Positions 30,975 through 34,589 of a DNA stretch of 64,000 nt are shown in pieces. The notes below the pieces were generated by a model. That model searched no databases. It saw only the letters and a program-made list of their open reading frames with translations, and had not been told where the DNA came from. The stretch is from Thermococcus thermotolerans (GTDB lineage: Archaea > Methanobacteriota_B > Thermococci > Thermococcales > Thermococcaceae), in the NCBI RefSeq assembly GCF_024707485.1, contig NZ_CP102602.1, positions 62,001-126,000 of the forward strand, read 5' to 3'. The position numbers and the translations under genes are program-made. The stretch's first letter is position 1. Each line of letters begins with the position of its first letter.

Positions 30975-32783
30975 ATGAGGACGTTTGTTGCCGATACGAG
31001 CGTAATCGTTGACGGTAGGCTTACACAGTTCCTCGCGGGTATCGATGGTGACGTTAAGGTCATCATACCTGAGGCGGTCATAGCCGAGATAGAGCACCAG
31101 GCCAACGAGGGAAAGGCGATAGGCCATGTCGGACTTGAGGAGCTCAAGAAGCTTAGAGAGATGGCCAACGAGGGCAGGATTATACTGGAGTTCCACGGAG
31201 AAAGGCCCGAACTCTGGCAGATAAAGAGGGCCAAGTCCGGGGAGATAGACAACATGGTTAGGGAGATAGCCAGAGAGCTGGGCGCCACCCTGATAACCGG
31301 CGACCAGGTGCAGAGGGACATCGCGATAGCAAAGGGGATAGACGTGATATATTTAACCGCCAGAAAGGAGGTCAGGCACCGCCTGGAGGACTTCTTCGAC
31401 GAGACTACGATGAGCGTCCACCTGAAGGCCGGGCTGAGGCCCCTCGCAAAGAAGGGAAGACCTGGAGAGTGGAGGCTCGTCCCGGTCAGGGACGAAATCC
31501 TCACGGACGAGGAGCTGGAGGAGATAGCGGACGACATAGTTGAGAGGGCAAAGCGCGATCCAGAGAGCTTCATAGAGCTCGACGAGCCAGGAGCGACTGT
31601 CGTTCAGCTCAGGAACTACCGTATAGTTATAGCCAAACCGCCCTTCGCTGACAGGATAGAGATAACCGCAGTCAGGCCGGTCAAGAAGCTCAGCATCGAG
31701 GACTATGAGCTGAGCGAGAAGCTCATGGAGCGCCTCAGGGAGAAGGCGGAGGGGATACTCATCGCTGGAGCGCCGGGTGAAGGAAAGACGACCTTCGCCC
31801 AGGCCCTTGCCGAGTGGTACGCCGGCATGGGCAGGATAGTTAAGACAATGGAGAAGCCCCGCGACCTTCAGGTCGGTGAAGAGATAACCCAGTACACAGC
31901 TCTGAGCGGCAGGATGGAGAAGACCGGCGACATACTCCTCTTGGTGAGGCCGGACTACACGATATTCGACGAGATGAGGAAGACGAGCGACTTCAAGATA
32001 TACGCTGACCTTCGCCTGGCGGGAGTGGGTATGGTAGGAGTTGTGCACGCAACGAAGCCGATAGATGCAGTTCAGCGCTTCATCGGAAGGGTGGAGCTCG
32101 GAATGATACCGCAGATAGTCGATACCGTCATCTTCATCAAGGCCGGAAGGGTCGCCAAGGTCCTGACGCTGGAGTACCTCGTTAAGGTGCCGAGCGGCAT
32201 GAGGGAGGAGGATTTAGCGAGGCCGGTGATAGAGGTCAGGGACTTTGAGACCGGTGAGCTTGAGTACGAGATATACACCTACGGCGAGGAGATAAGCGTC
32301 GTGCCCGTCAAGAGGGAGGAGAAAGCTCCAGCCCTTAAACTCGCGGAGAAGAGGCTCAAGCAGGAGATAAAGAAGTTCCTGCCCGATGTCTACACTGAGG
32401 TGGAGATAGTCAGCCCGCACAAGGCGATAATCTACGCTGACGAGTTCGACATCCCGGCGATAATCGGCAAGAAGGGCAAGCGCATCACCGAGCTGGAGAA
32501 GAGGATAGGCATAAGCATCGACGTCAAGAGCTTCACCGAAAGAGAGGCGGCAAAGCCGAAGGAGAGGATATCCGTTGAGGTCGAGGAGAAGAAGAAAACG
32601 ATTGTCCTCCGCGTTTCCCCGGACTACGCAAAGAGGCCCCTCAAGTTCTACGGCGGCGAGCAGTACGTCTTCACCGCAACGCCCAGCAAGAAGGGTCTCG
32701 TCAAGGTGAGCAAGAGCACACCCATAGGCAAGGAGCTCAAGAGGCTCATCGAGGCGGGGATACCCATCTGGGCGACCGCCTGA
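30975..32783 (+). CDS. PINA: PIN-domain and KH-domain ATPase
   Basis: A 602-residue protein with three parts: an N-terminal PIN domain (TFVADTSVIVDGRL, acidic residues Asp6 and Asp12, then LGATLITGDQVQRD), a type II/IV secretion-like ATPase (Walker A GAPGEGKTTFAQA near 273, Walker B TIFDEMRKT) and a C-terminal KH domain with the loop IPAIIGKKGKRITELE near 505. The same architecture in Sulfolobus (PINA) forms hexamers and migrates Holliday junctions. The ATG follows GAGGTGAGAGAA. It heads the cluster of tiny membrane proteins, 46 bases away. Confidence 0.93.
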   Translation: MRTFVADTSVIVDGRLTQFLAGIDGDVKVIIPEAVIAEIEHQANEGKAIGHVGLEELKKLREMANEGRIILEFHGERPELWQIKRAKSGEIDNMVREIARELGATLITGDQVQRDIAIAKGIDVIYLTARKEVRHRLEDFFDETTMSVHLKAGLRPLAKKGRPGEWRLVPVRDEILTDEELEEIADDIVERAKRDPESFIELDEPGATVVQLRNYRIVIAKPPFADRIEITAVRPVKKLSIEDYELSEKLMERLREKAEGILIAGAPGEGKTTFAQALAEWYAGMGRIVKTMEKPRDLQVGEEITQYTALSGRMEKTGDILLLVRPDYTIFDEMRKTSDFKIYADLRLAGVGMVGVVHATKPIDAVQRFIGRVELGMIPQIVDTVIFIKAGRVAKVLTLEYLVKVPSGMREEDLARPVIEVRDFETGELEYEIYTYGEEISVVPVKREEKAPALKLAEKRLKQEIKKFLPDVYTEVEIVSPHKAIIYADEFDIPAIIGKKGKRITELEKRIGISIDVKSFTEREAAKPKERISVEVEEKKKTIVLRVSPDYAKRPLKFYGGEQYVFTATPSKKGLVKVSKSTPIGKELKRLIEAGIPIWATA

Positions 32784-32829
32784 GAAAACTTTTTATAGTT
32801 TGCTTTCTTCTTTTTTATGGTGGTAAGAA

Positions 32830-33066
32830 GTGGGAGCCGCCGACGTACTGGCAATCCTCGGGGCGATATTTTTCATACTCCTGATATTCATGCCCTTTAT
32901 CCCAAGGGGTCCAAGCCTGATGGTGCTCTTCCTTGGTCTCCTGCCCCTGGCTCTGCTCGTCGTTCTCATAGTAAAGATGTGGGAGCTCAGCAGTGAGGTC
33001 AGAAGCATTAAAGAGGAGCTAAAGGCACTCCGGGACGAAGGGGGGAACGCGAAAGATGGGGAGTGA
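32830..33066 (+). CDS. Two-helix mini membrane protein A
   Basis: A 78-residue protein with two transmembrane helices (about residues 6-24 and 28-49) split by FIPRGPSL, then a charged helix WELSSEVRSIKEELKALRDE able to form a coiled coil. The GTG start lies behind GGTAAGAA. It overlaps the next gene by 11 bases. Function is unknown. The same plan recurs in the following four genes, which points to one family or a multi-subunit membrane complex. Confidence 0.78.
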   Translation: MGAADVLAILGAIFFILLIFMPFIPRGPSLMVLFLGLLPLALLVVLIVKMWELSSEVRSIKEELKALRDEGGNAKDGE

Positions 33067-33289
33067 GTATGACATCCTTGAGGCCGTTGGTGCGATACTG
33101 ACGGGCGTGGGCCTAGTAATACTGCTCACAGCAGGGGAAGCCGGATTGATCCTTGGGCCGGTACTCCTTGTGATGGGTCTCGTCGTCTGGAAGATGGGCG
33201 AGATGAGGAGGGAGTTCAACGAGAAGCTCGAATCCCTCAGAGAGGAGATAGAGTCCCTCAAAACCCCCGGGGGCACCGCGGATGGCTGA
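33056..33289 (+). CDS. Two-helix mini membrane protein B
   Basis: A 77-residue protein: helix 1 ILEAVGAILTGVGLVILLTA, helix 2 GLILGPVLLVMGLVVWKMGE, then EMRREFNEKLESLREEIESL as a coiled-coil tail and a Gly/Asp-rich end. The ATG overlaps the end of A; its stop overlaps the start of C. No known domain is recognised. Confidence 0.78.
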   Translation: MGSEYDILEAVGAILTGVGLVILLTAGEAGLILGPVLLVMGLVVWKMGEMRREFNEKLESLREEIESLKTPGGTADG

Positions 33290-33505
33290 CGTCTCCACCA
33301 AAGGATTCGCGATAATCGTCCTCTCAATATCACTTTAGTGCATCCAGTGGGGTGGCTGTCTGCCCTTGTAACGGCCCTGCTCTTTGCCCTGGTCGGCTGG
33401 ACGGTTATTGGAATAGCGAATGAAATCGATGGTCTGAGATCGGAGATATGGATGCTCCGCCATGAGGTAAAGGCCCTCAGGAAAGAACTCAGGACGGTGG
33501 AGTAA
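33282..33505 (+). pseudogene. Two-helix mini membrane protein C, frameshifted
   Basis: An ATG at 33282 opens MADVSTKGFAIIVLSISL and stops at TAG (33336-33338). The -1 frame then reads 55 residues from an overlapping GTG (33338): a second helix WLSALVTALLFALVGWTVIG and the tail EIWMLRHEVKALRKELRTVE, stopping at 33505. Joined, they match the two-helix-plus-coil plan of genes A, B and D. One T lost from CTTTTAG would explain the break. Programmed slippage at CTTTAG or coupled restart at TAGTG are alternatives, and a sequencing error is possible. Confidence 0.65.
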
Positions 33506-33506
33506 G

Positions 33507-33755
33507 ATGAAGCTCGTGAGGGACCTCGTCGTGCTCTTTGCACTGCTCGTGTCCATCTCCATGCTCCTGTGGGCTCAGCCCGAGAGCAGGGGCTCGGTGG
33601 GCTTTTATCTCGGCATTGCCTTCATTGTTCTGGCCTTCCTGCTCCTCGCCATCTGGGTGGAGCTGGAGCGCCTGGAGGACAGAATCCTCGAACTGGAATT
33701 CATCCTAGGTGAGTCAGGGGGAGATGAGAAAGATGAGAGGGATGTGGAAGGATAA
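33507..33755 (+). CDS. Two-helix mini membrane protein D
   Basis: An 82-residue protein: LVVLFALLVSISMLLWAQ and VGFYLGIAFIVLAFLLLAIW as transmembrane helices, then WVELERLEDRILELEFILGE and an acidic tail. It starts one base after the stop of C and overlaps E. Function is unknown; order and overlap show co-transcription with the cluster. Confidence 0.78.
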   Translation: MKLVRDLVVLFALLVSISMLLWAQPESRGSVGFYLGIAFIVLAFLLLAIWVELERLEDRILELEFILGESGGDEKDERDVEG

Positions 33756-33930
33756 GATTTTCTGGGGCACTGCTGGAGTTGCCCTCCTCCTCTACGCCTA
33801 CGGCATATTCTTGGAACCCAGCCCTCTGGCACTGGTCATTGGGAGCGTTTTCTGGGCTGTGGCGTTCCTGTATCTCCTGTGGGCGAGTTTCAGGAAGAAG
33901 GTTCGGAAGATTCTTGGGAGTGCAGGGTAA
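33733..33930 (+). CDS. Two-helix mini membrane protein E
   Basis: About 65 residues: two hydrophobic helices (KIFWGTAGVALLLYAYGIFL and LALVIGSVFWAVAFLYLLWA) and a short basic tail FRKKVRKILGSAG. It lacks the long coiled-coil tail of its neighbours. The start is uncertain: ATG at 33724, 33733 or 33742; I chose 33733, nine bases after GGAG. It ends the cluster; an antisense C/D RNA lies directly behind it. Confidence 0.7.
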   Translation: MRGMWKDKIFWGTAGVALLLYAYGIFLEPSPLALVIGSVFWAVAFLYLLWASFRKKVRKILGSAG

Positions 33931-33986
33931 GGCTCAGCTGCGAGGGTACTCATCACACGTCAGCTAGCGAAATTGTCTTCATCGCC
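33931..33986 (-). ncRNA. C/D box sRNA, antisense to the gap before maf
   Basis: The minus strand reads GCGATGA (C), 15 bases, CTGA (D'), CGT, GTGATGA (C'), exactly 12 bases, CTGA (D), with GGC/GCC able to close the ends. The bases before D' are complementary to UAGCGAAAUU, part of an ultra-conserved 23S rRNA segment. A TATA-like GGTTAAAAAATC lies 24 bases upstream on the minus strand. Such guides direct 2'-O-methylation with L7Ae, Nop5 and fibrillarin. Confidence 0.82.
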
Positions 33987-34034: not shown

Positions 34035-34589
34035 ATGCTGGTTCTGGCCTCTGCCTCACCGAGGAGACGGGAGATACTCGCCCGCTTCCTGGATAAGTTC
34101 GAGGTTATTCCAAGCAGGGCCAGCGAGGAGTGCGACCTGAGAGACCCGACCGAGTACGCCCTGGAGCTGGCCAGACGGAAAGCGTGGGAGGTTTACAACC
34201 GAGTGGGCGGAACCGTCATCGGCGCCGATACCGTGGTCAGCGTAGATGGGAAAATCCTTGGAAAGCCCAAAGATGAGGAAGACGCCTTCAGAATGCTCAG
34301 GCTCCTAAGCGGGAGGGTTCACAGGGTCACGACTGGCTACTGTATAATCCATAAAGGCACGGAAATCGCGGGAGTCGTCATCACGGAGGTTAAGTTCCGG
34401 GAGCTGGACGATGAGATGATCTGGGCATACGTCAGAACCGGCGAGCCGATGGACAAGGCAGGAGCTTATGGCATACAGGGAAAGGCCGGTCTCTTCGTCG
34501 AGTGGATCAGGGGTGACTACTACAACGTCGTCGGCTTCCCTCTGGAGATAGTCTGGAAGCTGAGGCAACTTGGATTTGAGGTTTTATGA
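34035..34589 (+). CDS. Maf-type nucleoside triphosphate pyrophosphatase
   Basis: A 184-residue Maf/YhdE family enzyme that hydrolyses non-canonical or dTTP/UTP nucleotides to monophosphates. The N-terminus MLVLASASPRRREIL carries the signature S-x-S-P-R-R, and GGTVIGADTVVSVDGKILGK near residue 58 and DKAGAYGIQGKAGLFVE near 142 complete the active site. The ATG follows AGGAGGAGAGACC. It is convergent with the PHP gene (34-base gap). Confidence 0.94.
   Translation: MLVLASASPRRREILARFLDKFEVIPSRASEECDLRDPTEYALELARRKAWEVYNRVGGTVIGADTVVSVDGKILGKPKDEEDAFRMLRLLSGRVHRVTTGYCIIHKGTEIAGVVITEVKFRELDDEMIWAYVRTGEPMDKAGAYGIQGKAGLFVEWIRGDYYNVVGFPLEIVWKLRQLGFEVL

Follow-up and report, generated by a model that had tools for sequence, protein, structure and literature searches.

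What is a run of tiny membrane-protein genes doing directly behind the PINA gene in Thermococcus thermotolerans, and does it belong with that neighbour? The genes, called A to E here, make up an array at positions 32830-33930 (+ strand) of the 64,000-nucleotide stretch of DNA that was analysed (hereafter the window). We think that they probably form an accessory operon that evolves fast, encodes coiled-coil membrane hairpins and is found in part of the Thermococcales. This judgement concerns anatomy and evolution, and the possible role of the operon is weighed separately below.

The array and its predicted products

The locus contains the following features, in window coordinates:

30975-32783, + strand: PINA (PIN-domain/ATPase/KH protein; NCBIfam NF010335, E 1e-266), the fixed left flank, outside the array
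32784-32824, + strand: array promoter predicted from the sequence (A-rich BRE, TATA box, Shine-Dalgarno)
32830-33066, + strand: gene A, 78 aa, GTG start, two TM helices and a predicted coiled-coil tail
33056-33289, + strand: gene B, 77 aa, two TM helices and a predicted coiled-coil tail (WKMGEMRREFNEKLESLR)
33282-33505, + strand: gene C, frameshifted in the window (18-aa fragment at 33282-33338, then 55-aa fragment from GTG 33338)
33507-33755, + strand: gene D, 82 aa, two TM helices and a predicted coiled-coil tail
33733-33930, + strand: gene E, 65 aa from ATG or 73 aa from GTG 33709, two TM helices and a short basic tail
33932-33986, - strand: sR39, a C/D-box sRNA (Rfam RF01122, 77 bits vs a gathering score of 50, E 1.4e-18), fixed right flank
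34035-34589, + strand: Maf nucleotide pyrophosphatase (Pfam PF02545, E 7.7e-61), fixed right flank

These coordinates bear out the tightly packed run of small genes reported right after PINA: the genes of the array overlap or lie at most 1 nt apart, and gene A starts 46 nt past the PINA stop in the same orientation. sR39 is antisense, between gene E and Maf. The neighbours look like housekeeping genes, and there are no defence genes among the ORFs read around the array. The preliminary description had counted five genes of 65-82 residues, each with two transmembrane helices. This is true of A, B, D and E (78, 77, 82 and 65 aa, two hydrophobic segments each) but not of C, which is broken here (18 + 55 aa) and thereby interrupted between its helices. 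Heptad-like charged tails are seen in A, B and D; the tail of E is short and basic.

The frame of gene C that opens at ATG 33282 reads MADVSTKGFAIIVLSISL and then stops, and the second helix and the tail lie in another frame, open from GTG 33338 (55 aa). Gene C is intact in four close relatives (G031, G048, G071 and G037), i.e. it encodes two helices in 74 aa, or 79-80 aa in one of them, and DNA alignment with the relatives places the loss of one nucleotide in the window gene after about position 33329. The frameshift could be an assembly error instead of a true mutation. Translation of the 55-aa part is conceivable from the sequence, since its GTG shares bases with the preceding stop codon (TAGTG).

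AlphaFold places the helices of B at residues 7-25 and 30-69 (pLDDT 84.8) and those of D at residues 2-22 and 25-70 (pLDDT 74.6). Both models are short hairpins whose helix 2, 40-46 residues long, crosses the membrane and continues unbroken as the tail. Fold comparison says little about so simple a hairpin, and a Foldseek search with the B model against the PDB and viral structures gave no significant match (best E 0.28). Basic residues follow directly on helix 2 in A, B, D and E and also mark the N-terminus of D and E, which suggests that both protein ends are cytosolic; the topology signal is weak for the N-termini of A-C and for the tail of C. The heptad spacing of L, I and V in the tails (e.g. 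IANEIDGLRSEIWMLRHEVKALRKEL in C), taken together with the monomer models, points to coiled coils.

The array members had been described as diverged paralogues, and for three of them this description appears to be correct. Profile-profile comparison gave probabilities of 95% for A-B, 94% for A-C and 90% for B-C over 62-76 columns, and none of 60 shuffles that preserved the composition of the helix, loop and tail segments reached these values. The links to D are weaker (C-D 72%, B-D 51%, A-D 41%) and were reached by 1-3 of the 60 shuffles; D is probably a further paralogue. For E, no convincing profile-profile link to the other array families was found.

Outside the array, only weak and mostly partial matches were obtained in 94 Thermococcales genomes, and within the Thermococcales the families are, as far as these searches can tell, confined to a single locus. 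A phylum-wide search with B (115 genomes) returned nothing but array members and one weak match to a longer protein; in the searches run, no homologue of the array came up outside the Thermococcales. No relative of family B was seen in viral contigs (24 patterns) or in phages and none of family D in plasmids, some of the collections searched leaving out records near the window. No array member scored above threshold in Pfam, NCBIfam, PADLOC or PHROGs, and we found no literature description of a PINA-Maf array locus. We note separately a hydrophobic protein of 133-137 aa in two genomes (G028, L194 1641-2054, reverse strand numbering; G027, L195 1762-2163), which has no Pfam match. Its C-terminal end resembles family B (E 2e-4 to 7e-3), a further weak match is present in G024, and it is a possible source or relative of family B.

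Promoter, distribution and the relationship to PINA

The sequence after the PINA stop reads GAAAACTTTTTATAGTTTGC...GGTGGTAAGAAGTG. It contains a TATA box TTTTTATA at 32790-32797, within the near-palindrome AAACTTTTTATAGTTT (32786-32801), and a Shine-Dalgarno-like GGTGGT at 32819-32824, upstream of gene A. The TATA box, the BRE and the Shine-Dalgarno-like site are close to the motifs of T. onnurineus (TTWTAW TATA, A-rich BRE, GGDGRD; PMC5316973). We predict that the array is most likely transcribed from a promoter of its own, because a similar string precedes whichever array gene stands first, i.e. A, B or others in genomes of the genus g1 and E in those of the genus g5. The promoter and the coupling of the genes are retained even after gene loss; in G047 nothing but the promoter and the initial codons of A is left before sR39.

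Two further readings of this promoter were considered. A regulon sharing it was rejected, since the 25-nt string from the TATA box to the leader occurs once in the genome, even with up to 3 mismatches allowed. The palindrome round the TATA box hints at an operator. We leave this as suggestive, because the visible dyad stands out from column-shuffled controls clearly at one position and marginally at three others, related sequences do not give independent evidence, and an A-rich BRE and a TATA element are a general feature in Thermococcus (PMC5316973). In some relatives the symmetric arms round the TATA box are longer (GCAAACT...AGTTTGC; in G049, GGAAACT...AGTTTCC).

The distribution of the array was investigated at 86 loci, i.e. 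the window and the region behind PINA from 85 further genomes; Maf was found downstream in 71, and sR39 was located by blastn. Profile searches detected at least one array gene or remnant in 37 of the 86 loci, a count from which arrays hidden by small contigs in metagenome bins may be missing. All 22 loci with at least two array families keep the order A-B-C-D-E with no duplication. The full set of five is present in 7 loci; E is the only family in 11, B in 3 and D in 1, and 6 loci have B-C. The other subsets seen are A-B-C, B-C-D, A-B, A-B-E, A-E and C-D. A B-E junction created by the loss of C-D is a 23-nt overlap. Nearly all g4 genomes and three of g5 have empty sites, with a PINA-Maf gap of 104-111 bp that holds little but sR39. 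In g1 the gap measures anything between 64 and 1274 bp. That of G024 (100 bp) is empty.

PINA itself is present in 93 of the 94 Thermococcales genomes and in 74 of 74 near-complete ones. The array is adjacent to PINA, co-oriented with it and separated by 46 nt from its stop codon, and it could be imagined as a partner module whose hairpins anchor PINA, or its work on DNA, at the membrane. We regard this as very improbable. There is no conserved co-occurrence (PINA in 74/74 near-complete genomes, the array in 37/86 loci), many PINA-Maf intervals of the same kind lack the array, the array has its own conserved predicted promoter, unrelated cargo is found in the same slot, and PINA, with a dN/dS of 0.02-0.06, shows no relaxation matching that of the array genes. 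By the criterion given with the preliminary description, comparison of the gene order around PINA across the Thermococcales, which showed the array to be often absent beside it, largely refutes the association with PINA; on the genomic evidence a PINA partnership is unsupported because every near-complete genome has PINA, with or without the array.

Three observations concern the surroundings of the array. The slot is also held, alone or behind array genes, by a family of soluble proteins of 122-126 aa (MKYDVVIIPESFHKFDKHNMEHIC...; G019, G020, G042, G044, G050, G055 and G058-G061) that has no Pfam or NCBIfam match. In ten genomes (G018, G040, G043, G056, G072, G073, G076, G077, G081 and G085) PINA is interrupted past residue ~271, at the P-loop, by about 590 residues with no break in the reading frame; this insert resembles an intein. 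Finally, in G077 (L091 ~307-820) sR39 is apparently split, its two parts lying ~400 bp apart as if by an insertion within the sRNA gene.

Decay is common among the array genes. C, frameshifted in the window, is cut down in G040 and G067, D is frameshifted in G027, B is reduced in G049, and E is broken or truncated in G048, G086, G089 and G029. On a quick DNA tree of PINA and Maf we counted 6 state changes for A, 7 for B, 11 for C, 6 for D and 12 for E, and full arrays occur in several clades. This pattern fits an A-E operon that was ancestral in g1 and then suffered repeated loss, and it fits at least E and the promoter being older than the g1-g5 split; the E proteins of the g5 relatives have a coiled-coil tail, unlike that of the window. 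Exchange may also have spread the array. The array has been lost in many lineages, and its function is therefore dispensable.

Selection, allele exchange and possible roles

The dN/dS values within allele classes were calculated, like the alignments and the tree, from short sequences; they are mostly 0.1-0.35 for the array genes, as compared to 0.02-0.06 for PINA; Maf has 0.08-0.17. In one group the majority of B pairs give higher values (0.4-0.85), based on few changes. Because the families recur at the same locus elsewhere with dN/dS well under 1, the array does not consist of chance ORFs; by these estimates the genes are real and under purifying selection that is looser than that on PINA.

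The alleles differ between relatives in a manner that depends on the gene. Between G000 and G071, identity is 93% for A and 44% for E; between G000 and G031 it is 54% for A and 79% for E. Between the same genomes the 46-bp and 104-bp non-coding flanks are ~90-97% identical, sR39 explaining part of the 104-bp value. In the quartet G000, G071, G031 and G037, gene A groups G000 with G071 against G031 with G037 at 63 informative sites (1000/1000 bootstraps), with 0 sites for the C-E split and 2 for any other. Genes C-E group G000 with G031 against G071 with G037 at 131 sites (1000/1000 bootstraps), as compared to 10 for all other splits together, 6 of them for the gene-A split. These opposite trees show, at the level of sequence, that alleles have been replaced gene by gene between species. 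The fact that alleles are exchanged while the flanks are conserved suggests a changing target.

These results bear on the suggestion that the five proteins are subunits of a membrane assembly. The invariant gene order, the tight overlaps and the seven loci with all five families could be taken to indicate an obligate complex in which A-E are fixed subunits. Such a complex is unlikely, since some loci keep one member only and alleles of A have been exchanged separately from those of C-E. Subsets (E alone 11, B-C 6, B alone 3, D alone 1) are commoner than the full set, single-gene loci are under purifying selection, C is broken in the window genome, and E has no demonstrable homology to the rest. 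In other words, an assembly is possible, but not one that requires all five parts.

A serious rival, which we still consider unlikely, is that the genes encode dispensable, nearly neutral orphan membrane peptides that arose by tandem duplication and are now decaying, with no sharp function. The frameshifts, truncations and scars in many genomes agree with it, as do the 6-12 state changes per gene and the raised dN/dS of B (0.4-0.85) in most pairs of one group; frequent decay is, moreover, also expected of a weakly useful gene. On the other hand, dN/dS is mostly 0.1-0.35 elsewhere, the promoter and the coupling of the genes are kept after gene loss, and divergent alleles have spread by exchange and not by mere drift.

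We therefore return to the accessory operon as the preferred reading and outline how it might work. The locus between PINA and sR39-Maf encodes up to five tiny hairpins (A-E). These would insert in the membrane with both ends cytosolic and self-associate via helix 2 and its coiled-coil tail, each member acting alone or with its siblings. Their role would most likely be that of a non-essential effector or shield at the membrane face, under changing selection. A defence role is a plausible hypothesis: of the individual functions considered, virus or plasmid exclusion at the membrane is tentatively ranked first, followed by a function in adapting the membrane, or a membrane complex, to local conditions. 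More doubtful is an undescribed archaeal exclusion or recognition system built solely of two-helix coiled-coil hairpins, i.e. a polymorphic array whose alleles are shuffled between species since its members recognise or block a partner that itself changes, be it a virus, a plasmid or a competitor.

The array genes undergo loss, disruption and exchange between species much more readily than the neighbouring genes, and the PINA-sR39-Maf slot, with empty, partial and full versions in close and partly cultivable hyperthermophiles, amounts to a natural experiment. If it is true that the hairpins exclude viruses or plasmids, they would constitute a very simple kind of membrane defence in archaea. 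Even if they do not, the array remains an example of orphan membrane genes that originate by duplication, persist under weak selection, pass between species and disappear.

Comparison with known systems

Holin-like or membrane-depolarising effectors of a recognised defence system had been mentioned as one possibility. The small size, the two-helix form and a turnover typical of defence loci agree with such a role, and phage holins and Rz-like spanins are likewise small, with one or two helices and a coiled-coil tail. Nevertheless we judge it improbable, as neither sequence nor fold supports it, although turnover and allele exchange keep the idea alive. There is no PADLOC match (best E 0.028, between A and part of a Macro-domain protein; none for B-E), the best PHROGs match has an E of 0.009 and the best PHROGs lysis match one of 0.048 (spanin models ~0.05), no PDB or viral fold is matched better than E 0.28, and the unit has no sensor or nuclease gene. 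Nor is the setting that of a phage or prophage: the array lies between the core genes PINA and Maf with no lysis genes, and B occurs in no phage record.

Diverged, fast-evolving small membrane proteins are also clustered in euryarchaeal loci, including those of Thermococci, described by Makarova et al. 2015 (PMC5898192). Those loci contain an AAA+ ATPase, a SalXY-type ABC transporter and S-layer genes, whereas the array operon has none of these.

LapA_dom (PF06305) and other small helix-coiled-coil proteins combine short membrane helices with a coiled-coil tail, as the array proteins do. The matches stay below the cut-off of 28 bits (C fragment 17.9 bits, A 12.5 bits; E 0.003 for gene C and 8e-4 for one B member), and we read this likeness as one of composition, not of membership.

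The last comparison is with a 67-aa protein that is paired with an ArsR-type regulator (G000:C1:484948-485106; L192 4925-5421, - strand) in the same genomes as the array. It has one helix as opposed to two, and it is widespread in the Thermococcales beside its ArsR-like gene, unclustered. The profiles of A and C match it weakly (E ~1e-5 to 1e-3) and over helix 2 and the tail only, so common descent is not demonstrated. What it shares with the array proteins is a small membrane helix followed by a charged coiled coil.
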